DNA from: Caldithrix sp.
GTDB taxonomy: Bacteria; Zhuqueibacterota; Zhuqueibacteria; Oceanimicrobiales; Oceanimicrobiaceae
DNA length: 10,315 nucleotides
Assembly: GCA_004357015.1 (NCBI GenBank)
Contig: SMXE01000267.1
Span: 1-10,315 of the forward strand
Direction: 5' to 3'
Shown here: positions 1 to 10,315 of the stretch, in pieces
Numbering within the stretch: the first letter of the stretch is position 1
How the letters are laid out: every line of letters begins with the position of its first letter
Position numbers and translations under genes: made by a program
The notes under the pieces: generated by a model
The model's database searches: none
Seen by the model: only the letters and a program-made list of their open reading frames with translations
Told to the model about the DNA's origin: nothing

Positions 1-879
1 AGCGGGCTGAATTATCTTTTCGAGCCGAATCTGGCGGCGTTGCTGAACTACAGGACATGGCTGGAGGCGCTCTCACAGTCTGCCTGGTCCACCGGCGCTG
101 GCTGGGGTCTCATCCTGACCTACGCTGTTTATATGAAGAAGGAAGAGGATGTGGTTCTGAATTCGTTTATCGCCGGATTGGGCAACAACACGGCCTCGTT
201 GCTGGCAGCAATGGTGATTTTGCCAACTATATTCGCAATTTTGCCCTATGATGAAGCGATGAAAGCGATGGCCTCCGGCAATACCGGACTCACCTTTATC
301 TGGATTCCAAAGCTGTTTGAGCAGATGCCGCTGGGTTCGTTTTTCATGATTGTCTTTTTTCTCGCCCTGGCCTCTGCGGCGCTGTCATCGCTCATCGCCA
401 TGCTTGAACTGGCCACCAGAATTTTCATGGATGCCGGGCTCGAACGGCACCGGGCAATTTTGTTTGTAGCTACGTTCGGGTTTTTGTTTGGCCTGCCTTC
501 CGCGCTCAGTTTGCAATTTTTCAACAACCAGGACTGGGTCTGGGGCCTCGGGCTTATCATCAGCGGCATGTTTTTTACGTTCGCCGCCATCAAATACGGT
601 GTTGACAAGATGCGGACGACGTTGATCAATGTTGAAGGTAACGATCTCGCCGCTGGCCGGTGGTTCAACCGCATTGTTACTTTTCTGATCCCACTTGAGT
701 TTGTTGTCCTGATAGTTTGGTGGTCGTGGCAGGCCGTGACTGCCTATGATCCGGAAGGCTGGTGGAACCCGTTTCGCACCTTTAGCCTTGGCACCTGCAT
801 ATTTCAGTGGCTGCTGGCCATTGTGATTCTTGTTGTGTTGAATAACAAGATGTTTGAAAAAACCATTAGAGGAAGTTAA
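1..879 (+). CDS. Sodium-dependent transporter, NSS (neurotransmitter:sodium symporter) family, 3' part
   Basis: This frame is open from the first base of the window, so the gene begins upstream; 292 residues of the C-terminal portion are visible and no start should be placed at the internal ATG-like codons. The family imports amino acids or related solutes across the inner membrane with Na+. The opening residues (SGLNYLFEPN, then the SAWSTGAGWG stretch) match the conserved NSS region around helix 8. After it come about six more hydrophobic segments: VLNSFIAGLGNNTASLLAAM, the long SFFMIVFFLALASAALSS stretch, a helix near RAILFVATFGFLFG, the WVWGLGLIISGMFF helix, and two C-terminal helices ending near NNKMFEKTIRGS. 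Bacterial NSS proteins have 11-12 helices and about 450-500 residues, so roughly the last 60% is present. The small gene directly downstream fits the transporters that need a MetS-type subunit. Substrate cannot be read from the sequence. Confidence 0.93.
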   Translation, partial: SGLNYLFEPNLAALLNYRTWLEALSQSAWSTGAGWGLILTYAVYMKKEEDVVLNSFIAGLGNNTASLLAAMVILPTIFAILPYDEAMKAMASGNTGLTFIWIPKLFEQMPLGSFFMIVFFLALASAALSSLIAMLELATRIFMDAGLERHRAILFVATFGFLFGLPSALSLQFFNNQDWVWGLGLIISGMFFTFAAIKYGVDKMRTTLINVEGNDLAAGRWFNRIVTFLIPLEFVVLIVWWSWQAVTAYDPEGWWNPFRTFSLGTCIFQWLLAIVILVVLNNKMFEKTIRGS

Positions 880-896
880 TTGAATTGGAGTTTTGG

Positions 897-1010
897 ATGT
901 CTACTTCAGCAATTATTATGATGGTGGTGATTCTTGGGATCGTATGGGGTGGTTTTGTGGCAACTTTGAGAATTGCTTTCGTAAAGGAGTCCCGCAAAAA
1001 TCGAAAATGA
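897..1010 (+). CDS. MetS-like small subunit of the NSS transporter (37 aa)
   Basis: This short gene is easy to miss. It starts at ATG 897, with TTGGAG at 885-890 and a 6-nt spacer, 17 bases after the transporter stop. The product has a short polar N-terminus (MSTSA), one hydrophobic helix of about 20 residues (IIMMVVILGIVWGGFVATL) and a basic tail rich in Lys and Arg. This plan matches the MetS/MetP family: in Corynebacterium glutamicum MetS is the small subunit needed by the NSS-type methionine/alanine importer MetP. It probably inserts in the inner membrane beside the upstream transporter. Its TGA (1008-1010) overlaps the ATG of holA (1007-1009), so translation of holA is probably coupled to it. 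The assignment rests on size, architecture and position, not on an alignment. Confidence 0.8.
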   Translation: MSTSAIIMMVVILGIVWGGFVATLRIAFVKESRKNRK

Positions 1011-1999
1011 ATTATTCTGAATTCATCTCTTTGTTAGAGAAGAAAGGCCTGCCGAATTCTGTCTTTTTCTGTGGTTCGGAGGATTTCCTGATCGAGGATT
1101 GCCTGCAGCGAATCACTCACACAGTTGACCCGGCTACGCGCGATTTCAATTTTGACGTCTACTACGGCAGCCAGGTCGATGGCGGCAAGATAGTTGATAC
1201 GGCAAGCGCTTACCCGATGCTGGCGGAGTCCCGCCTGGTGATCGTCAAGGAAGTGAACAAGCTTTCCGGCGCCGGTCTGGAAGCGCTCGCCAAATATCTT
1301 GAGCGGCCATCATCGACCACGCGCCTGGTTTTGATCGCAGAAAAAATCACCGCCCGCAACAAGTCGTGGACCAAGATCAAATCCAACACCTGTTTCGTGG
1401 AATTCAAGCAACTCTACGACAATCAAGTCATGAGTTGGATGAAGCAATATCTTCGCGGACGGGGTTACGAGATTACATCTGACGCCAGTATACTTGTTCA
1501 CAGCCGTGTCGGCAACAATCTGCGCGCCATTGCAAATGAATTGAATAAGATCTTGCTGAATCTAAATGGTGAGAAGAGGATTGCGGCGGAAGATGTGCAA
1601 AGAGTTGTTGGACTTTCCAGAACGTTTTCCGTATTTCATTTAACGGACGCCATTGGCAACCGCGAGATTGAGAATGCGCTGCAGATCATGAGCAAGATGC
1701 TTGACAGCGGCGAATCGCACACAGGCATGCTGGCGATGATCACGAGGCACTTTGTGAGTTTGCTGGTCATCAAGGGCGCGGTGCGTCAAAAGAAGAGTGA
1801 TAATGAAATTGCCGCACTGGCCGGCATCGCGCCTTATTTCGTCAAAAAGAACAAGACTATGGCGGCGAAGTACTCGTTTCGACTGTTTGAGAACGTATTT
1901 GTTTGCCTGCTGGAAACAGATCTGAAACTGAAGACCAGCCAGCAGCCGCCCAAGATCGCGTTGCAGACAATGCTCGTTCAAATATTGCAGCAGGATTAG
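1007..1999 (+). CDS. holA: DNA polymerase III subunit delta
   Basis: The delta subunit is the wrench of the clamp loader: it opens the beta sliding clamp so that it can be loaded on primed DNA. From ATG 1007 the product is 330 residues, normal for bacterial HolA. The N-terminus (MNYSEFISLLEKKG, then NSVFFCGSEDFLIED) and the stretch DFNFDVYYGSQVDGGKIVDT with the following SAYPMLAESRLVIVKEVNKL are typical of the family's degenerate AAA+ domain; the C-terminal helical collar ends near LKTSQQPPKIALQTMLVQIL. The frame stays open upstream to a TTG at 893, but that would add 38 residues read from an overlapping frame of the small transporter subunit, so 1007 is preferred. AAAGGAG at 983-989 is 17 nt away, rather far; the ATGA overlap suggests coupled re-initiation. 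It shares no functional logic with the transporter genes upstream. Confidence 0.92.
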   Translation: MNYSEFISLLEKKGLPNSVFFCGSEDFLIEDCLQRITHTVDPATRDFNFDVYYGSQVDGGKIVDTASAYPMLAESRLVIVKEVNKLSGAGLEALAKYLERPSSTTRLVLIAEKITARNKSWTKIKSNTCFVEFKQLYDNQVMSWMKQYLRGRGYEITSDASILVHSRVGNNLRAIANELNKILLNLNGEKRIAAEDVQRVVGLSRTFSVFHLTDAIGNREIENALQIMSKMLDSGESHTGMLAMITRHFVSLLVIKGAVRQKKSDNEIAALAGIAPYFVKKNKTMAAKYSFRLFENVFVCLLETDLKLKTSQQPPKIALQTMLVQILQQD

Positions 2000-2089
2000 C
2001 CTATTGACGTCCGAATTATTGAGCGCTTAGCGTCAGCCATCTTTCCGCAGCACGTTTGCAAAATAGCACAGGAACTTTTCTATCACGAT

Positions 2090-2716
2090 ATGGTTGAAAA
2101 CTTCGACAATACGACCCAAAAATCAGAGCAGCCCAAACGCCGCGACAATCGGCCTTCAGATGAAGATCTCATCGAGCGGTTTCAAAAGGGCGATGTTTAC
2201 GCTTTCGACCTTATCGTAAAGAGATACAAAGAACAACTCTTGAACTTCGTTTACCGTTTTGTCGGCAGCCAGGAAGAGGCAGAAGACATCGTTCAGGAGA
2301 CGTTTCTGAGAGTTTACCGAAAGCGTCATGCCTACAAACGGATCGCAAAATTTTCTACGTGGATTTACACCATAGCCGGAAATCTCTCACGAACGGAGTT
2401 GCGACGTCGAAAAAGAAGGAGAATGTTTTCCGTTACCGACATGGGGTTCGAAGATCGTGATTATGAGATATCTGATGATGGCCACAACCCGGAAACGCAG
2501 GTAGACAGTGTTATTCAGGAAGAGATAATTCATTGGGAAATTAATAACTTATCCCCAAAGTTCAGAGAAGTGATAATTCTTCGCGATGTGCAGGAACTCT
2601 CTTACGAGGAGATTAGTAAGATCATCAAAGTTCCGATTGGTACCGTGAAATCCCGCGTCAACCGAGGGCGGCTGAAACTTCAAGGCAAACTGAAACACTT
2701 GCTGAAAAAAAAATAG
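2090..2716 (+). CDS. RNA polymerase sigma factor, ECF/RpoE-like sigma-70 family
   Basis: This 208-residue protein has the two-domain plan of ECF sigma factors, which direct RNA polymerase to stress or envelope regulons. Region 2 spans roughly residues 25-110: EEDIVQETFLRVYRKR-like sequence (here EAEDIVQETFLRVYRKR) followed by FSTWIYTIAGNLSRTELRRRKR, the core-binding and -10 recognition part. After a charged linker, region 4 covers about 155-203: LSPKFREVIILRDVQELSYE, then EEISKIIKVPIGTVKSRVNRGR, the -35-binding helix-turn-helix. The first 24 residues are a polar extension. ATG 2090 is the only sensible start, but no Shine-Dalgarno lies at normal distance (AGGA at 2070-2073 is 16 nt away). The last codons are a run of nine A (2705-2713). 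The next two genes encode a putative membrane anti-sigma and an HtrA-like protein, which is the usual company of an envelope-stress sigma. Confidence 0.93.
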   Translation: MVENFDNTTQKSEQPKRRDNRPSDEDLIERFQKGDVYAFDLIVKRYKEQLLNFVYRFVGSQEEAEDIVQETFLRVYRKRHAYKRIAKFSTWIYTIAGNLSRTELRRRKRRRMFSVTDMGFEDRDYEISDDGHNPETQVDSVIQEEIIHWEINNLSPKFREVIILRDVQELSYEEISKIIKVPIGTVKSRVNRGRLKLQGKLKHLLKKK

Positions 2717-2765
2717 ATTTTTGTTCAACGTGTCGATAAATCAGTAACGTTTATCAATGTCGAAC

Positions 2766-2772
2766 AAGGGAG
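2766..2772 (+). promoter_or_regulatory. Ribosome binding site that sets the anti-sigma start
   Basis: AAGGGAG sits 5 nt before ATG 2778. The same frame is open from an earlier start-like codon at 2757, but that codon has no ribosome site and would place this AAGGGAG inside the coding region. ATG 2778 is therefore the better start. Confidence 0.6.
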
Positions 2773-2777
2773 CGTCT

Positions 2778-3353
2778 ATGACAACTTGGAAGCAGTTTGA
2801 GCAGGACATGATGGATTATCTTGATGGTCTACTGTCAACGGAGAAGAGGAAGGAGATCGATAAACGGCTGGCGGATGATGCCGAAGCTCTGCAGCTTTTC
2901 AATAGCCTTAGCGCTTTGAAGGCGCAACTCAGAGGTTTGAAGCGGATTAAGACGTCTCCTGATTTTGACACGGTTCTCCGAACGCGGATTCGTATGGAGA
3001 AGAGTCTCAGCCGTCGTAGCTTGTTTGCTGGCGACTCCCGAGCGTCTGTTTTCGCGCTGGCTGGTGCCTTGGCAGTTTTGGCGGTGGTTCTTGCCATGAA
3101 TGTCTCAAATTCGGATCTGAAGCGGCCCTATTCTAACAAGAGTCCTTTACCAGCCTCAGTGGTTACCAGTTTTTCACGAAGTCAGCAAGATTCCGGGAGT
3201 ATCCAAAGGGCAAGGATTAACTATCCGATGGAAATGGTACGCTTGCCGCAGGGCGGCACTCGCCTTGAGTCGGATGCGAGGCGGGGCGTTACGACCGCTT
3301 CCGATTCCTCACGGAATTCTCTCAAGGATCAGATTGTTACAGTCGAGTTTTGA
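2778..3353 (+). CDS. Putative membrane anti-sigma factor, cysteine-free
   Basis: From ATG 2778 the product is 191 residues. Residues 1-70 form a charged, helical N-terminal domain beginning MTTWKQFEQDMMDYLDGLLS and containing EIDKRLADDAEALQLFNSL, which resembles the cytoplasmic anti-sigma domain (helices that clamp region 2 and 4 of ECF sigmas). One membrane helix follows at about residues 90-109 (SVFALAGALAVLAVVLAMNV); the remaining ~80 residues are a low-complexity, Ser/Arg-rich exported tail. The protein has no cysteine or histidine at all, so it cannot use the HxxxCxxC zinc motif of ZAS-type anti-sigmas such as RsrA. Its place 61 bp after the sigma gene supports the role. The sequence itself is too diverged for a firm family call, so the function is inferred from topology and neighbourhood. 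Confidence 0.7.
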   Translation: MTTWKQFEQDMMDYLDGLLSTEKRKEIDKRLADDAEALQLFNSLSALKAQLRGLKRIKTSPDFDTVLRTRIRMEKSLSRRSLFAGDSRASVFALAGALAVLAVVLAMNVSNSDLKRPYSNKSPLPASVVTSFSRSQQDSGSIQRARINYPMEMVRLPQGGTRLESDARRGVTTASDSSRNSLKDQIVTVEF

Positions 3354-3401
3354 TGTTGAGTTTGGTTTGAAACCGCCTGTTGACCAGCGACGCAGATAAC
3401 C

Positions 3402-4628
3402 GTGTTCTTAGCACTCAAAAAACGTCCTCATCTGTTCGCAGCCATTCTCGCCATTGCTGTGGTTGTTCAGAATCAATCTGGAATCGCCAGCGATACCCTC
3501 AAGCGAGTAGAAAAAGAGCTGCAGGCTCTGATGGCCTCTACCAAGGCATCTATCGTTACTGTCACGGCCACGCTCTCCCGCGAAATACCCATCGAATCAG
3601 AGGGAACTTTTCTCTCATTGTTCAGAACCGAACGTGCTACCCAGCCGGTTTCCTACGTCAACATTGGCAGTGGTGTCATTCTGGATGAAGCCGGGCATAT
3701 CTTAACAAGAAACAGCGTGGTTCGGGGCGCCGGCGCAATCCTGGTGACGCTTTCTGGCGGACGTGAGATGGTTGCGCGCTTGCTCAGTCACGATCCTGAA
3801 ACAGGGTTTGCTTTGCTAAAAGTGGAATCGGAAGGATTAGCGGCGATTCACCTGGGAGATTCGGATGAGGTACTGCCCGGATCTTTGAGTTTGATGGTTG
3901 GAAATTCTCTTGGCGTTTACCCTTCAATTGTCCTTGGCGCAATTAATGCTATTCGTGCGGATGGTATGATTCAGCTTTCAGCGGCCCTAACCCCCGGAAA
4001 CAATGGCAGCCCTATTATCAATTTGGACGGTGAGGTTGTCGGCCTTGTTGTAGGACAGGTTAACACGACCGTCAGCGGTTATGAATCTTTGCCTGGCTTT
4101 CATGTCAGTCCGACGATTTTGGTTTATCCCTCGAACCGGGTGAGAAGGATTGCAGCAGATCTTATCAAATACGGGCGTGTGCGCAAAGGTTGGCTGGGCG
4201 TGGTCGGCTACCATGATGGCTGGAAACCGAAGATTCGCAAGATCCGGGAAGACAGTCCCGCGCAAAAAGCAGGTCTCATCACCGGGGACGTTATTGTGAA
4301 GTTCTCGGGCAAAGAGGTTGGCAACATTCCTCAACTCGCACATCTGGTTGAGTATTCTTCGCCCGGAGAAACAGTTGCGGTTGAATATCAGCGGTCAGGA
4401 CAAACCATGACGACCAATGTGGAGATCGGTGAGAAGGCTGTAAGGGGGTCGTCGGATAAAGAGGCTTTTGTGTGGAGTCAGGGCAGCTACGTTTCAAACG
4501 GATTCGAAGAAATGAACGCTCAGGACCCAACCATTATCGCTTTGGAGCGCCACCGGTTACTGGAACACCGGATCAATGAACTCGGGAGGGAGTTAGATCG
4601 TTTGAAGAAGTTCCTTAATTCGTATTAA
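3402..4628 (+). CDS. HtrA/DegS-like trypsin-PDZ protein, predicted catalytically inactive
   Basis: A 408-residue protein with an N-terminal signal or anchor helix (KKR, then LFAAILAIAVVV, residues 11-22), a trypsin-like domain at about 45-220, a PDZ domain at about 255-345 (GWLGVVG, then SPAQKAGLITGDVIVKFSGK) and a C-terminal coiled coil (about 380-408, LERHRLLEHRINELGRELDR). The fold is clearly HtrA-like: IGSGVILDEAGHILT, DPETGFALLKV, LGDSDEVLPG and NLDGEVVGL align with DegP/DegS. At the three catalytic positions, however, the residues differ: His of TNNHVV is Ser105 (RNSVV), Asp of TDLALL is Gly135 (TGFALL), and Ser of GNSGG is Asn201 (GNNGS). It is therefore probably a non-proteolytic, exported ligand-binding or scaffold protein. 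GTG 3402 is the only available start after in-frame stops at 3351, 3357 and 3381; no clear ribosome site precedes it. It is third in the sigma/anti-sigma operon, 48 bp after the anti-sigma gene. Confidence 0.88.
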   Translation: MFLALKKRPHLFAAILAIAVVVQNQSGIASDTLKRVEKELQALMASTKASIVTVTATLSREIPIESEGTFLSLFRTERATQPVSYVNIGSGVILDEAGHILTRNSVVRGAGAILVTLSGGREMVARLLSHDPETGFALLKVESEGLAAIHLGDSDEVLPGSLSLMVGNSLGVYPSIVLGAINAIRADGMIQLSAALTPGNNGSPIINLDGEVVGLVVGQVNTTVSGYESLPGFHVSPTILVYPSNRVRRIAADLIKYGRVRKGWLGVVGYHDGWKPKIRKIREDSPAQKAGLITGDVIVKFSGKEVGNIPQLAHLVEYSSPGETVAVEYQRSGQTMTTNVEIGEKAVRGSSDKEAFVWSQGSYVSNGFEEMNAQDPTIIALERHRLLEHRINELGRELDRLKKFLNSY

Positions 4629-4656
4629 TATAAATACTTAGTTCGTTGTATTTTTG

Positions 4657-4690
4657 AACCGTCCAGCATAACTTGCGGCGGTTTTTTTAT
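4657..4690 (+). terminator. Rho-independent terminator after the sigma/anti-sigma/HtrA-like operon
   Basis: AACCGTC (4657-4663) pairs with GGCGGTT (4677-4683), seven pairs including one T-G wobble, around a 13-nt loop. A run of seven T (4682-4688) overlaps and follows the 3' arm. It lies 29 bp after the stop codon of the HtrA-like gene and just before the next promoter. Confidence 0.75.
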
Positions 4691-4717
4691 TGACTTTTGG
4701 GGAAAAGTTGTTAAATT
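4690..4717 (+). promoter_or_regulatory. Sigma-70-like promoter for the zinc-ribbon/BMC-P/rdgB operon
   Basis: TTGACT (4690-4695) resembles a -35 box and TAAATT (4712-4717) a -10 box, 16 bp apart. Transcription would start near 4724, leaving a leader of about 26 nt that includes the AGGAG ribosome site of the next gene. The promoter begins on the last bases of the terminator above, so the two operons are tightly packed. Prediction from motif match only. Confidence 0.55.
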
Positions 4718-4749
4718 AGATGCCCGTTACTTTAGTGAAGAGGAGTTCA

Positions 4750-4950
4750 ATGGCAAAAGATCAAAGTTTTGCAGCAAAAGTCGCAAAGGCTTCGGCCGAC
4801 AGCAAAGACGGTCATTGTCCAACGTGTGATGAGAGCTATAGCACGGTACAACTGGTCGTTTCGGAAAAAGTGGAAAAGAGTGGCGCCTGGAAGTTCAATC
4901 AGAGGTTTGTCCGTGTTTGCAAGTGTAATCATTCTGAAGTTTACGGCTAA
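4750..4950 (+). CDS. Small zinc-ribbon protein of unknown function (66 aa)
   Basis: ATG 4750 follows AGGAG (4741-4745) with a 4-nt spacer; an earlier in-frame start-like codon at 4720 lacks such a site. I do not recognise a named family. The product has a Lys/Ala-rich, probably flexible N-terminus (residues 1-20) and then a small metal-binding module: HCPTC (Cys23, Cys26) and VCKCNHSE (Cys57, Cys59, with His61 close by), separated by about 30 residues with beta-like sequence (VQLVVSEKVEKSG, then WKFNQRFVRVC). Four well-placed cysteines suggest a structural zinc ribbon, possibly for RNA, ribosome or protein binding. It is the first gene of an operon with two microcompartment vertex genes and rdgB, 18 bp before the next start. 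Confidence 0.75.
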   Translation: MAKDQSFAAKVAKASADSKDGHCPTCDESYSTVQLVVSEKVEKSGAWKFNQRFVRVCKCNHSEVYG

Positions 4951-4958
4951 TACGTAGC

Positions 4959-4962
4959 GGAG
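4959..4962 (+). promoter_or_regulatory. Ribosome binding site supporting a TTG start
   Basis: GGAG, 6 nt before TTG 4969, supports a TTG start for the first BMC-P gene. The resulting N-terminus (M-ILAKVIGTVWATKK) lines up residue for residue with that of the ATG-started second copy (MNLAKVIGTIWATQK). Confidence 0.55.
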
Positions 4963-4968
4963 AACGAC

Positions 4969-5238
4969 TTGATTCTCGCGAAAGTCATCGGCACGGTATG
5001 GGCGACAAAAAAGGATGAAAAACTCGTCGGCATGAAACTGCAAATTGTGCGTCCGGTAGAACTTGATTACAAAGAGAAATCTGGCTTTCTGGTCGCCGTC
5101 GATACGGTTGGTGCGGGCGTGGGTGAAGTCGTCCTGGTTTGTCAGGGCAGTTCGGCACGGCAGACTGCCTTGACTGAGAATCGCCCTGTCGATGCTACGA
5201 TCATGGCTATTGTAGATAAACTTGACGTAGTTGAATGA
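4969..5238 (+). CDS. BMC-P (EutN/CcmL-type) microcompartment vertex protein, copy 1
   Basis: An 89-residue protein of the EutN/CcmL family, whose members form pentamers that close the corners of bacterial microcompartment shells. The family signature is clear: an N-terminal ILAKVIGTVWATKKDEKLVG strand pair, then LVAVDTVGAGVGEVVLVCQG, the conserved glycine-rich turn followed by a beta strand, then the SSAR residues. The C-terminal VDATIMAIVDKLDVV is also typical. The length is normal (85-100). It overlaps the next gene by ATGA (5235-5238), so the two are translated together. The start is TTG. No BMC-H shell gene or encapsulated enzyme lies in this window, so what shell it caps, if any, is not shown. 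Confidence 0.92.
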   Translation: MILAKVIGTVWATKKDEKLVGMKLQIVRPVELDYKEKSGFLVAVDTVGAGVGEVVLVCQGSSARQTALTENRPVDATIMAIVDKLDVVE

Positions 5239-5516
5239 ATCTGGCAAAAGTCATCGGCACTATTTGGGCAACGCAGAAAGATGAAAATCTTGTTGGGGCG
5301 ACGATGCAGATCATCCAACCGCTCGACTACAATCAACAGGCAATCGACTCTCCGATCATCGCGGTTGATACGGTTGGCGCAGGTCCCGGCGAGGTGGTTT
5401 ATTATGTCACCTCCCGCGAAGCGGTAATTCCGTATCCCAAAGATCTGGTTCCCATCGATGCCGCTATTGTTGGCATCGTCGATTGGGTGGACGTGTACGA
5501 TGCATTGCCCAACTGA
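5235..5516 (+). CDS. BMC-P (EutN/CcmL-type) microcompartment vertex protein, copy 2
   Basis: A 93-residue second member of the EutN/CcmL family, starting at ATG 5235 inside the stop of copy 1. It shares MNLAKVIGTIWATQKDENLV and IIAVDTVGAGPGEVVYYV with copy 1, and the nucleotide sequences at the start of the two genes are visibly alike, so this is a tandem duplication. The two differ in the middle (the loop after QIIQP) and after the glycine-rich turn: copy 1 keeps the SSAR segment, while copy 2 has TSREAVIPYPKD. The copies may form mixed pentamers or have separate partners; this is inference. It lies 18 bp before rdgB. Confidence 0.92.
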   Translation: MNLAKVIGTIWATQKDENLVGATMQIIQPLDYNQQAIDSPIIAVDTVGAGPGEVVYYVTSREAVIPYPKDLVPIDAAIVGIVDWVDVYDALPN

Positions 5517-5534
5517 TTTTCGGAGTGCCGGGTT

Positions 5535-6164
5535 TTGAGCAGAAAATTGGTGCTGTCCACCGGAAATCAGGACAAAATTGTTGAAATAAAGAATCTTCTC
5601 CAACACCTTGAAATCGAGATTCTGACCCTCGACGCGTTTCCGGGCGCTCCGGACGTGGTTGAAGACGGCGAGACGCTCGAAGAAAATGCCATCAAGAAAG
5701 CCAGGGCGATTGCTGACTTTACCGGCCTGCCTGCGGTCGCGGATGACACCGGACTCGAAGTCAATTATTTGGATGGCGCTCCGGGCGTTTATTCGAGTCG
5801 CTATTCTGGCGAACATGCCACGTACGCAGACAATGTAAACAAACTGCTTCGTGAACTTATGGGTGTGCCGAGGGAAAAGCGGGGCGCTCGATTTCGCTGC
5901 GTTGCAGCGTTTTGCAACCAAAATGACTGCCGCACCATTGAAGGAAAGTGTGAAGGCGTGATTGGTGAGGAAAGAAGAGGCACCGGCGGCTTTGGCTATG
6001 ACCCGGTTTTTTATGTGCCGGAATATGGCCGCACTTTTGCCGAGATGGACTTGGAATTGAAGAATCGGATCAGTCACCGGGCGAAAGCTTTTTTAAAGTT
6101 AAGGGAGTTAATCGAACGTGGCGAGTTTGACTTCCGAGCGAAGAAAATCAATTTCGGGGCGTAG
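5535..6164 (+). CDS. rdgB: XTP/dITP diphosphatase (non-canonical purine NTP pyrophosphatase)
   Basis: This enzyme of the HAM1/RdgB family hydrolyses dITP, ITP and XTP to the monophosphate and pyrophosphate, keeping deaminated purines out of DNA and RNA; it acts in the cytoplasm with Mg2+. The motifs are all present: STGNQDK (residues 8-14), EDGETLEENAIKKA (43-56), ADDTGLEV (69-76) with the catalytic Asp pair, PGVYSSRYSG (83-92), GTGGFGYDPVF (149-159) and ISHRAKA (179-185). TTG 5535 has GGAG (5522-5525) 9 nt upstream and gives the expected N-terminus. At 209 residues it is about 10 longer than E. coli RdgB; the extra C-terminal residues (RGEFDFRAKKINFGA) run into the tRNA gene, whose first ten bases supply the last codons and the stop. 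Confidence 0.95.
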   Translation: MSRKLVLSTGNQDKIVEIKNLLQHLEIEILTLDAFPGAPDVVEDGETLEENAIKKARAIADFTGLPAVADDTGLEVNYLDGAPGVYSSRYSGEHATYADNVNKLLRELMGVPREKRGARFRCVAAFCNQNDCRTIEGKCEGVIGEERRGTGGFGYDPVFYVPEYGRTFAEMDLELKNRISHRAKAFLKLRELIERGEFDFRAKKINFGA

Positions 6165-6228
6165 CGCAGTCCGGTAGCGTATCTGCTTTGGGAGCAGAGG
6201 GTCGCTGGTTCGAATCCAGTCGCCCCGA
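6155..6228 (+). tRNA. tRNA-Pro(UGG)
   Basis: A full cloverleaf of 74 nt. The acceptor arms CGGGGCG (6155-6161) and CGCCCCG (6221-6227) pair completely, with discriminator A at 6228. The D arm uses GCGC and GCGT, the anticodon stem is TCTGC/GCAGA with loop TTTGGGA (anticodon TGG, proline), and the T arm is GCTGG-TTCGAAT-CCAGT. CCA is not encoded (the next bases are CTT), so CCA-adding enzyme must finish it. Its first ten bases overlap the end of rdgB. No separate promoter is obvious, so it may be co-transcribed with rdgB and released by RNase P. Confidence 0.97.
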
Positions 6229-6232
6229 CTTG

Positions 6233-6279
6233 AAGCTGAAGCCCGCTGTCATATTGTTGATGGCGGGCTTCTTAGCTTT
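6233..6279 (+). terminator. Hairpin terminator after tRNA-Pro
   Basis: GAAGCCCGC (6238-6246) pairs perfectly with GCGGGCTTC (6263-6271), and AAGCT (6233-6237) can extend the stem with AGCTT (6274-6278) past a 2-nt bulge. The T tract is short and broken (TT, then TTT), so termination could be incomplete; the hairpin may also protect or help process the tRNA 3' end. Confidence 0.65.
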
Positions 6280-6338
6280 GACGGTGCAAGCTTTGTGCGC
6301 ACCTCAATTGTAAATTAGAGGGTTATGCATCGTTTTTA

Positions 6339-6367
6339 TTGAATTTTGTCAATTTGTTCTTTATATT
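6339..6367 (+). promoter_or_regulatory. Strong sigma-70-like promoter of the archease-rtcB operon
   Basis: TTGAAT (6339-6344) and TATATT (6362-6367) are separated by 17 bp and lie in AT-rich DNA. The normal distance of 7 nt from the last -10 base puts the transcription start at about 6374, the A of the archease ATG. This points to a leaderless mRNA. Motif prediction only. Confidence 0.6.
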
Positions 6368-6373
6368 GATTTA

Positions 6374-6802
6374 ATGCAGAAACGCGCGTCACGGTATGTG
6401 CCCGTCGAGCACACGGCAGATGCTGGCATAAAAATATTTGCCCCTGATTTGAAGGGTGTTTTTGAGAGCGCGGCCCAGGGCCTCTTTGATCTGATCGCAA
6501 ATCTCGACAGAGTGACTCCCACTTCCCGAAGACAGATTGAAATCGAGGCCACAGACCGTGAAGCTTTACTGGTGACCTGGCTTTCTGAACTCAATTATCT
6601 GTTTCTGACGGAAAGAGTGATTTTTAAAAAATTCCAAATCACGACTTTAGACGAGTGCGCTCTTTCCGCTTTGGTTGCTGGCGAGCCGCTGGATCTTGAG
6701 AAACACGAAATTTACACTGAGGTGAAGGCAGTAACTTACCACGGTTTGTATGTCAAAGAAGCCGACGACGGGTGTGAAGCTCAGGTCATTTTTGATTTGT
6801 AG
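6374..6802 (+). CDS. Archease (RtcB activator)
   Basis: Archease helps the RNA ligase RtcB to be guanylylated and to turn over many times. The 142-residue product has the family's N-terminal VPVEHTADAGIKIFAP motif (His13 and Asp16), LVTWLSELNYLF in the middle, and the C-terminal VKAVTYHGLYVKE and QVIFDL segments, with Asp141 as the last-but-one residue; the acidic residues would bind the activating metal. The length is normal (about 140). It lies 28 bp before rtcB, the classic partner. No Shine-Dalgarno precedes ATG 6374, and the predicted promoter ends 6 bp before it, which suggests leaderless translation. Confidence 0.93.
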   Translation: MQKRASRYVPVEHTADAGIKIFAPDLKGVFESAAQGLFDLIANLDRVTPTSRRQIEIEATDREALLVTWLSELNYLFLTERVIFKKFQITTLDECALSALVAGEPLDLEKHEIYTEVKAVTYHGLYVKEADDGCEAQVIFDL

Positions 6803-6830
6803 ATATTAAGTTGGTATTGCGGCGGGTATT

Positions 6831-8264
6831 GTGAAGCTGAGAAAAGTCACGGACTACTTGTGGGAAATTCCTAAGGAAGGCGGCATGCGGGTTCCGGCGC
6901 GCATTTATGCCACGGCAAAAATGATCGATGCCATCCGCAACGACAACGCGCCGGTGCAGGCGGCCAACGTCGCGTATTTGCCCGGCATCGTCAAATACTC
7001 CCTTGCCATGCCGGACATTCATTGGGGCTATGGATTTCCCATCGGGGGCGTCGCTGCGTTCGATTTGGAGGACGGTGTGATTTCTCCCGGAGGCGTCGGT
7101 TACGACATCAACTGCGGCGTCCGCTTAATGGCTTCCAGGCTGACCCGTCAGCAAATCCAGCCCAAAATCAAACAGCTCGTCAACTCTCTGTTTAAGCATG
7201 TTCCCACCGGCGTTGGCTCCAGAGGTGATCTTCGACTGACTCATGAAGCCGAAAAGAAAGTCCTTGTGCAAGGTGCGGTCTGGGCAGTGAAACATGGCTA
7301 TGGCACAGAGGCCGACCTAGAATACATCGAAGAAAATGGCAGCACCGATGCCGCCGATACAACCGTTGTCAGCTACAAGGCGCTTGAGCGGGGAAGAGCG
7401 CAGTTGGGCACACTGGGTTCGGGCAACCACTTTCTGGAGGTGGGCTATGTAGCTGAGATTTGCGATGAGGAAGCCGCACGCGTGCTCGGGCTTGAGCTTG
7501 ACCAAGTGACTGTTATCATCCACTGTGGGTCGCGGGGGTTCGGGCACCAGGTTTGTGATGATTATTTGACAGTGATGAACCGGGCGGTCCAGAAGTACGG
7601 GATTTCACTGCCCGATCGGCAACTTTGCTGTGCGCCGATCAAGTCTCCGGAAGGCCGAGAGTATCTGGGCGCCATGCGTTGCGCCGTCAATTTCGCTTTT
7701 GCAAACCGCCAGGTGATTGCGAGCTGGGCAGGAGATGCGTTTCAGGAAGCGTTGCGAATGAGCCCGAACGAGATTGGGCTGCGTGTGGTCTACGAAGTAG
7801 TGCATAACATCGCGAAGTTCGAGACGCACGAAGTCGATGGCGAACAGATGAAACTCTGTGTGCACAGAAAGGGAGCCACACGTGCATTTGCGCCGGCCTC
7901 ACCGGATATTCCGGCTGCCTATCGGGGCATCGGCCAACCTGTTTTGATTCCGGGCGACATGGGGCGCTATTCGTATGTGTTGGTTGGCACTCAGGGCGCT
8001 ATGCGGGATACTTTTGGTTCGACCTGCCACGGTGCCGGCCGGGCCATGAGCCGGCACAAAGCCAGGAAAGCTGCCAGAGGCCGGTCCATTGCCAGCGAAC
8101 TCGAGAAACAAGGCATTTATGTGCAGGCGTCAAGTCGTCGTACAATTGATGAAGAAATCCCGGAGGCGTACAAAGATGTCGCGAGTGTTGTCGATGCCTG
8201 CCAGCTTGCCGGCATTTCGAAGAAGGTCGTGCAATTAAAGCCACTTGGTTGTATTAAAGGGTGA
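6831..8264 (+). CDS. rtcB: RNA-splicing/repair ligase RtcB
   Basis: RtcB joins RNA with 2',3'-cyclic phosphate or 3'-phosphate ends to 5'-hydroxyl ends, using GTP and Mn2+. The 477-residue length is standard. Every metal and catalytic residue of the Pyrococcus enzyme has a counterpart a few positions earlier: Asp92 and Cys95 in YDINCGVRL, His200 in GSGNHFLEVG, His231 in HCGSRGFGHQ, His325 in VVHNIAKFE, and His400 in TCHGAGR, the residue that takes GMP. It is therefore predicted to be active. GTG 6831 is the start (GGCGGG at 6821-6826 is a weak ribosome site). It is downstream of archease and overlaps the SatD-like gene by GTGA, suggesting coupled translation. In bacteria RtcB repairs cleaved tRNA or rRNA after stress. 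Confidence 0.97.
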   Translation: MKLRKVTDYLWEIPKEGGMRVPARIYATAKMIDAIRNDNAPVQAANVAYLPGIVKYSLAMPDIHWGYGFPIGGVAAFDLEDGVISPGGVGYDINCGVRLMASRLTRQQIQPKIKQLVNSLFKHVPTGVGSRGDLRLTHEAEKKVLVQGAVWAVKHGYGTEADLEYIEENGSTDAADTTVVSYKALERGRAQLGTLGSGNHFLEVGYVAEICDEEAARVLGLELDQVTVIIHCGSRGFGHQVCDDYLTVMNRAVQKYGISLPDRQLCCAPIKSPEGREYLGAMRCAVNFAFANRQVIASWAGDAFQEALRMSPNEIGLRVVYEVVHNIAKFETHEVDGEQMKLCVHRKGATRAFAPASPDIPAAYRGIGQPVLIPGDMGRYSYVLVGTQGAMRDTFGSTCHGAGRAMSRHKARKAARGRSIASELEKQGIYVQASSRRTIDEEIPEAYKDVASVVDACQLAGISKKVVQLKPLGCIKG

Positions 8265-8911
8265 AGAAGGTTCTGCCTGTGTCCTACTGCGTCATTACAG
8301 CCGATGTCAACAAGTCGAGAGAAATTTCGGACCGGCAGGAGTTGCAGGAGCGGCTCCTCGATTGTCTGCGGCAGGCTAATCGCGAGTTTGCTGAGAGCCT
8401 GGCGGTGAATTTCGCCGTTACACTGGGGGATGAGTGGCAGGGCTTGCTTCGTGGCGTAACCAAGAGCTACAGCATCGCATCGTATTTTCAGGAAATGCTG
8501 CATCCCATTGCGATTTCAGTAGGCATTGGCGTCGGTGAGATTTCCACTGGCCTCGCGGTAAGGTCGACTGAAATGGATGGCGAAGCATTTCACCGTTCGC
8601 GGGAGGCACTTACCTTTTGCAAGCAGCACAATCGGGAACTCTACTTTGTGACCGAAAGGCCCGGAGGCGATGCGCTGCTGAATACGACGCTTCATCTTCT
8701 GCAAGTTCTAAAGGATTCCTGGACGCAGAGACAGTATCAAAAGATAATGCTTTATAAACGTTTCAGGAAAGAAAAGTTGGTCGCTGAGGAGTTGGGAATT
8801 TCCCAGGCGGATGTGAATAAGACATTGAGTTCTGCGAATGGGCGGGTTTATTTGGAATCGCAGGAACAGATCTGTGAGTTTTTTGCGCAGGGCATGGAGA
8901 TTTTGTCATAA
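8261..8911 (+). CDS. SatD-family protein: cyclase-like fold with C-terminal helix-turn-helix
   Basis: This 216-residue protein resembles the SatD family, named from the Streptococcus mutans sat operon; no biochemical function is established. Residues 8-115 recall the order of motifs in class III nucleotide cyclase domains: an early Asp in VITADVNKSRE (Asp15), AVTLGDEWQGLL (Asp57), ISVGIGVGEISTG (85-97) and EMDGEAFHRSREAL (104-117). Residues 155-192 look like a helix-turn-helix of the sigma-region-4 kind (RQYQKIMLYKRFRKEKLVAE, then ELGISQADVNKTLSSA). It could be a ligand-sensing transcription regulator. GTG 8261 overlaps the rtcB stop (GTGA); no independent ribosome site is seen, so translation is likely coupled to rtcB. 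The cyclase comparison is my reading, not an alignment score. Confidence 0.75.
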   Translation: MKKVLPVSYCVITADVNKSREISDRQELQERLLDCLRQANREFAESLAVNFAVTLGDEWQGLLRGVTKSYSIASYFQEMLHPIAISVGIGVGEISTGLAVRSTEMDGEAFHRSREALTFCKQHNRELYFVTERPGGDALLNTTLHLLQVLKDSWTQRQYQKIMLYKRFRKEKLVAEELGISQADVNKTLSSANGRVYLESQEQICEFFAQGMEILS

Positions 8912-8996
8912 CCTAAAAAGGTTATATTTATCAAATAAAACCTAAAAAGGTTATATTCTTAAAATAAAACCTAAAAGGGTTGTATTAGGAGAACAG
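8910..8996 (+). repeat. 29-bp direct repeat, three copies, with inverted repeats
   Basis: Three tandem units start at 8910, 8939 and 8968. The core AACCTAAAAAGGTTATATT is identical in units 1 and 2 and differs at two bases in unit 3; units 1 and 2 match at 26 of 29 positions. Each core holds the inverted repeat AACCT-AAAA-AGGTT. Neighbouring units can also pair: GGTT of one with AACC of the next (8920-8942, and 8949-8971), giving stems of 8-9 pairs around one A-A mismatch. Unit 1 begins on the last two bases of the satD-like stop codon, and unit 3 carries the AGGAG (8987-8991) of the next gene. It may be an operator for the HTH protein just upstream, an RNA switch, or a length-variable repeat. 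Confidence 0.85.
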
Positions 8997-8998
8997 TT

Positions 8999-10315
<1,317 letters not shown>

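Follow-up and report, generated by a model that had tools for sequence, protein, structure and literature searches.

A conserved HtrA-fold pseudoprotease encoded beside an ECF sigma factor and a putative anti-sigma factor

Why would a bacterium maintain an HtrA protein whose catalytic triad has been replaced, and what could such a protein do? The question is raised by a 10,315-nucleotide stretch of DNA from Caldithrix sp. (GenBank assembly GCA_004357015.1, contig SMXE01000267.1, positions 1 to 10,315, hereafter the window), which encodes a 408 amino acid protein with the HtrA arrangement of a trypsin-like domain and a C-terminal PDZ domain, as indicated by Pfam, PDB sequence matches and the predicted fold. 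A sequence-only reading of the window had proposed that all three catalytic residues of this protein are replaced, that fold and PDZ domain are intact, that a C-terminal coiled coil has been added and that the gene is a selected pseudoprotease and not a decaying one. The features of the gene are as follows.

3402..4628, plus strand: pseudo-HtrA gene, 408 amino acids (open reading frame listing, Pfam, structure model with fold comparison, conserved S/G/N)
within 3402..4628, plus strand: N-terminus resembling a signal peptide (by eye), then a trypsin-like domain that lacks the triad, a single PDZ domain and a C-terminal helix
3714..3716, plus strand: codon of S105 at the catalytic His site (alignment; His in 0 of 72 orthologues)
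3804..3806, plus strand: codon of G135 at the catalytic Asp site (alignment; Asp in 3 of 72 orthologues)
4002..4004, plus strand: codon of N201 at the nucleophilic Ser site, GNNGS vs GNSGG (Ser in 10 and Asn in 24 of 72 orthologues)
4191..4202, plus strand: W264-L265-G266-V267 loop of the PDZ domain, which we take from HtrA PDZ structures to be its carboxylate-binding loop (W264 in 65 and G266 in 70 of 72 orthologues)
4224..4427, plus strand: PDZ domain, residues 275-342 (Pfam match)
4527..4622, plus strand: C-terminal helix, residues 376-407, likely coiled coil (predicted secondary structure)

The window protein carries S/G/N in place of the His-Asp-Ser triad that defines the HtrA (S1C) family and thus lacks the cutting triad of the DegS/AlgW type, while a degenerate triad in an HtrA fold, as judged by alignment and predicted fold, is a trait that it shares with pseudoproteases of the MamO type. 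Protein searches identified a close group with 41-55% identity to the window protein (self excluded), separated by a sharp break from ordinary Do/DegP proteins. Ser and Gly occupy the His and Asp sites in all 57 proteins of this group, the window's own counted, and the Ser site is Asn in 56 and Thr in one. In an alignment (A1) of 45 of the 51 close proteins from the search S105, G135 and N201 belong to the 29 invariant columns, while H/D/S was found in 195 of the 201 more distant matches inspected. The predicted fold, the Pfam PDZ match and the conserved W264/G266 loop bear out an HtrA fold with an intact PDZ domain, and the C-terminal extension is also real, with a helix predicted in the window protein and a tail of at least 35 residues in 60 of the 72 orthologues.

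These orthologues were obtained from 82 genomes of the phylum, one genome per species; in 58 of them a single match reaches an E value of 1e-60 or lower. Fourteen further genomes have a more divergent orthologue, accepted partly on its position within the locus. This gives 72 orthologues from 72 species, mostly labelled KSB1, and one of the orthologues (L150) has diverged too far to be aligned with certainty. At the His site we found Ser (58), Asn (3), Thr (3), Lys (3), Arg (2), Ala (1), Gly (1) and Pro (1); at the Asp site Gly is present in 54; and the Ser site is occupied by Asn (24), Ala (12), Ser (10), Ile (7), Val (6), Gly (4), Thr (4), Leu (2), Cys (2) and Glu (1). No orthologue combines two triad residues, and none of the 72 has an intact triad. 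Within the window's own family S/G/N is found in all eight species. A substitute catalytic His was also sought among the alignment columns, as distinct from model geometry, and neither a conserved His nor a conserved Cys column was identified, the best His column being filled in 29 of the 45 rows and 24 of the 72 orthologues; an alternative triad was rejected on this ground.

Of the 82 genomes, two (G071 and G072) carry the locus but no dead HtrA, in two (G048 and G051) the contig ends right at the ECF (extracytoplasmic function) sigma or anti-sigma gene described below, and in six (G032, G034, G054, G070, G073 and G077) neither a dead HtrA nor the ECF gene was detected at E 1e-50. Eleven loci lie in named public contigs and the six with names come from one metagenome-assembled genome of Caldithrix sp. 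and five of candidate division KSB1; two database proteins of the group are labelled Calditrichaeota. Matching of names in the NCBI taxonomy equates KSB1 with Candidatus Zhuqueibacterota, which is thus the likely name of the phylum. A search with basal members passed from the dead P0156-P0171 to ordinary proteins within the best 120 rows, although it scored only candidates sharing most words and says nothing on absence outside the phylum. HtrA paralogues with H, D or E, and S are present in the genomes checked, including the window's own (contig C200).

The history of the triad was addressed with a quick tree of 87 rows, comprising 43 of the 72 orthologues, eight dead database rows and 36 others, from an alignment that excluded the triad columns. 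Fifty of the 51 dead rows fall on one side of a branch with an SH-aLRT (Shimodaira-Hasegawa-like approximate likelihood ratio test) value of 95, and on the opposite side lie 35 intact rows plus two odd long rows, P0053 (counted among the 36) and P0214. A single old loss of the triad fits these sequences as the simplest history. The two odd proteins stand outside the family: P0053 (359 amino acids) has Ala at the His site and keeps D and S, P0214 (580 amino acids) has S/G/G at the triad sites, and by sequence they are possible further pseudo-HtrA lines.

The ratio of nonsynonymous to synonymous substitution (dN/dS) of the pseudo-HtrA is 0.153 in the G001/G007 pair and 0.148, 0.146, 0.159, 0.109 and 0.127 in five further pairs, three of the six pairs having a dS over 1.2, close to saturation. 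Other genes of the G001/G007 pair gave 0.176 (the pyrophosphatase-like gene listed below), 0.027 and 0.135 (EutN) and 0.378 (a partial anti-sigma). Because dN/dS is 0.11-0.16 the gene is not decaying: the pseudo-HtrA is a maintained protein under purifying selection. Together with the loss of the triad at the same sites across the phylum this led us to reject a pseudogene, and the view of a selected pseudoprotease is strongly supported. Maintained in this way beside a sigma factor and its putative anti-sigma factor, the protein probably acts through binding rather than cutting.

What it might bind is suggested by its neighbours. In the window HolA is followed in order by the ECF sigma factor, the putative membrane anti-sigma factor and the pseudo-HtrA, after which come a small zinc-ribbon-like protein, a pair of EutN/CcmL proteins and an XTPase-like protein. 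The features relevant to the comparison of loci are the following.

893..1999, plus strand: DNA polymerase III delta subunit (HolA), upstream syntenic marker (Pfam)
2090..2716, plus strand: ECF sigma factor (Sigma70_r2, Sigma70_r4_2; TIGR02937 at 109.3 bits, cut-off 42.9)
2757..3353, plus strand: putative membrane anti-sigma factor, 198 amino acids (weak profile matches, alignment, synteny)
3342..3350, plus strand: V-E-F, the last three anti-sigma residues, a PDZ-ligand-like end
5535..6164, plus strand: gene taken from its sequence to be XTP/dITP pyrophosphatase-like (XTPase), downstream syntenic marker (open reading frame)

Synteny was counted on 70 loci, L044 and L048 being counted for the triad and left out here. 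Wherever the sequence extends far enough, an anti-sigma gene on the same strand lies at most 1.5 kb upstream of the pseudo-HtrA (66 of 66 loci; 68 of 70 overall). With the same proviso the ECF gene is present upstream in 65 of 65 and HolA upstream in 60 of 60, while on the downstream side the XTPase-like gene is present in 35 of 45. Since synteny of the sigma, anti-sigma and dead-HtrA genes is near-complete while EutN genes are near the pseudo-HtrA in only 14 of 70 loci, we regard the three former as the conserved unit.

The anti-sigma proteins have in common a zinc-finger-like N-terminal region and a hydrophobic segment (both by eye; the window protein has one such segment and a tail), followed by a poorly conserved tail. 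The end of this tail is an exception. The final residue is Phe or Tyr in 67 of 67 proteins (56 Phe, 11 Tyr) with Val or Ile at position -3 in 45, a count that omits three of the 70 loci in which the anti-sigma scored below 85 bits, was absent or was cut by a contig end, and that includes one tail (L062) from an unusually short frame. Phe or Tyr ends are found in 0 of 66 ECF, 3 of 65 HolA, 4 of 47 XTPase and 2 of 67 pseudo-HtrA proteins, and in 139 of 1041 open frames of at least 150 amino acids, real or not, the anti-sigma frames included. Over 69 tails column entropy is 0.70 bits at position -1, 2.30 at -3 and 2.92-3.91 elsewhere to -20.

DegS is the textbook PDZ-gated protease sensor. Its PDZ domain recognises ends of the form YxF, the MucE tail with its WVF end activates AlgW, and the site-1 cut of the anti-sigma factor is held back by MucB/RseB (PMC8545111, PMC8103513). 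By analogy the V/I-x-F/Y end of the anti-sigma is like the C-termini bound by the PDZ domains of DegS and AlgW. We infer that the dead HtrA is a PDZ partner of the anti-sigma tail, because of the invariant aromatic end, the DegS/AlgW/MucB parallels and the intact PDZ loop. The earlier suggestion that a dead HtrA may sense misfolded proteins through its PDZ domain and pass the signal without cutting is plausible and now has a pathway to which it can be linked, since the gene follows ECF sigma and putative anti-sigma genes in almost every locus and the anti-sigma has an invariant PDZ-ligand-like end.

We propose, at about even odds (roughly 0.5), that an old HtrA-fold pseudoprotease found throughout the phylum regulates the ECF sigma/anti-sigma pair encoded directly upstream by shielding the anti-sigma tail through its PDZ domain. 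The dead HtrA would be exported and would probably form a trimer, perhaps clamped by the C-terminal helices. Its PDZ domain would bind the extreme C-terminus of the anti-sigma, V/I-x-F/Y-COOH, and so put the periplasmic tail out of reach both of RseP and of a working site-1 protease, which would be one of the active HtrA paralogues. When the envelope is stressed, outer-membrane proteins that are unfolded and have similar C-termini (x-F-COOH) would compete for the PDZ domain, the anti-sigma tail would be freed and then cut and the sigma factor would be released. Such a protein would combine the shielding job of RseB with the PDZ sensor of DegS, with no cutting of its own. Shielding with competitive release appears the simplest working scheme because active HtrA paralogues and RseP, the latter in 9 of 9 genomes including the window's own, are on hand. 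Export, binding of the tail, the direction of the effect, competition by outer-membrane protein tails and the trimer are all parts of the proposal that we put forward conditionally. The more general idea, that the envelope-stress switch of the phylum would work by competition and not by allosteric activation of a protease, the anti-sigma carrying an outer-membrane-protein-like tag that the dead HtrA PDZ holds until unfolded outer-membrane protein tails displace it, is tentative.

Several observations weigh against this proposal. G071 and G072, which belong to one family, keep HolA, ECF and anti-sigma genes, but the position of the dead HtrA is taken by a different protein that looks GAF-like by eye (L163 5516-6787 in G072; L166 in G071). 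Their anti-sigma proteins nevertheless end in V-N-Y and V-S-Y, and H/D/S is present in the further HtrA matches inspected in the two genomes (L127, L152 and L155). Either another PDZ protein reads the tail there or the tail has a different use everywhere, and because the tail is kept in these genomes without a dead HtrA it is no proof of pairing with it. No clear signal was obtained for dead-HtrA columns that track a Phe or Tyr end (66 pairs, 10 with Tyr). The true reader of the tail could be an active HtrA, RseP or other PDZ protein. The shield itself may be another protein such as a true RseB: of 30 relatives, 21 have matches to the RseB family (PF03888) at E 0.001 and 18 have matches above the Pfam cut-off, the best at 35.8 bits and most spanning only part of the model, with no match in the window's own genome (G000, 70% complete). 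The name of the anti-sigma is also putative, as it is based on position and on profile matches that are each below their own cut-off (zf-HC2, E 0.055; NF052375 antisigma, E 2.6e-4; PRK13920, E 0.0011).

The main rival is an activator or adaptor, in which the dead HtrA would recruit or switch on an active HtrA paralogue and deliver the anti-sigma to it via the PDZ domain. It is supported by the precedent of MamO, an inactive protein that promotes MamE-dependent proteolysis (PMC4794232), and the active paralogues and the conservation of both PDZ loop and anti-sigma tail would suit it. No active paralogue was seen beside the dead HtrA in the loci laid out, however, and the dead group stands well apart from the active paralogues on the tree, so that mixed oligomers are not obvious; we consider this role credible but unlikely. 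The dead HtrA may instead be a chaperone or scaffold for unfolded envelope proteins, expressed along with the sigma operon but making no contact with the anti-sigma. The rseA-htrA-tatB operon of M. tuberculosis, whose meaning has been called hard to understand (PMC10027907), and degP/htrA as a target of RpoE (PMC8103513) are in keeping with this, but the synteny is tighter than membership of a regulon requires and the anti-sigma end is PDZ-ligand-like, which makes a pure chaperone or scaffold rather improbable.

That the protein is still an enzyme with an unusual site is more doubtful by far. Ser105 could be proposed as part of such a site, as 58 of the 72 orthologues have Ser in the position of the His, or the Cys that replaces the nucleophile in basal members, which occurs in 2 of 72 loci and 12 of the 16 proteins P0156-P0171. 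Against this there is no conserved His or Cys column, and a catalytic site would hardly tolerate the ten residues found at the Ser position. The basal proteins with Cys at the nucleophile position (P0158-P0167, P0169, P0171, L014 and L015) themselves have no His. An artefact or recent pseudogene is the least probable of all and may be practically discounted: the metagenome-assembled origin of the window was all that we found to favour it, whereas the same replacement occurs in 57 database proteins, the triad is lost in 72 genomes (overlapping sets) and dN/dS is 0.11-0.16.

A number of other genes accompany the module. A 66 amino acid zinc-ribbon-like protein (CPTC...CKC; window 4750-4950, plus strand) is encoded between the pseudo-HtrA and EutN genes and has relatives in 48 of 71 loci searched, which suggests that this small gene is conserved. 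Behind the stress operon come two EutN/CcmL-type vertex proteins of microcompartments in tandem (4969-5238 and 5235-5516, plus strand; Pfam). Further downstream two side-by-side genes (6374-6802 and 6831-8264, plus strand), presumably Archease and RtcB-like from their sequences, have relatives behind the module in L082 and L084. Promoter-like sites (6 in 1900-5300; 2.9, sd 1.8, in shuffles) and terminator-like sites (4; 3.8, sd 2.2, in shuffles) were not relied on.

Compared with DegS and AlgW, the site-1 HtrA proteases of the sigma-E/AlgU pathways, the window protein differs in having no triad and an extra C-terminal helix, and here the ligand-like end sits on the anti-sigma itself; its W-L-G-V loop is intact, and the PDZ domain may bind x-F ends. 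It resembles MamO of alpha-proteobacterial magnetosomes as a selected HtrA-type protein with a degenerate site beside active relatives, but MamO binds metal via a di-histidine motif and has a role in biomineralisation (PMC4794232), whereas here no conserved His column was found in the alignments of this family and the context is a sigma operon. The likeness to RseB/MucB is in the proposed role only, a periplasmic shield against the site-1 cut; the domain is different, and the Pfam matches of the window protein, taken up to an E value of 1, do not include PF03888. In M. tuberculosis sigE/rseA-htrA-tatB the genes for sigma, anti-sigma and HtrA are likewise adjacent, but its HtrA is described as an essential serine protease (PMC10027907). 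HtrA pseudoproteases of magnetotactic bacteria and sigma/anti-sigma/HtrA neighbours in M. tuberculosis are thus known already. In titles and the starts of abstracts, with subscription journals mostly outside, we met no description of a dead HtrA that is present throughout a phylum in a constant position beside an ECF sigma/anti-sigma pair whose anti-sigma ends invariantly in a PDZ-type motif, which is weak evidence that the module is new.

The shielding proposal makes the specific prediction that the PDZ domain binds the V-x-F tail of the anti-sigma. If true, the sensor and the place beside the anti-sigma would have been kept and the scissors lost, cleanly separating two functions of HtrA, and there would be a case of a widely conserved HtrA pseudoprotease unconnected with magnetosomes. 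The module would thereby lend itself naturally to the question of what an HtrA scaffold does when it does not cut.
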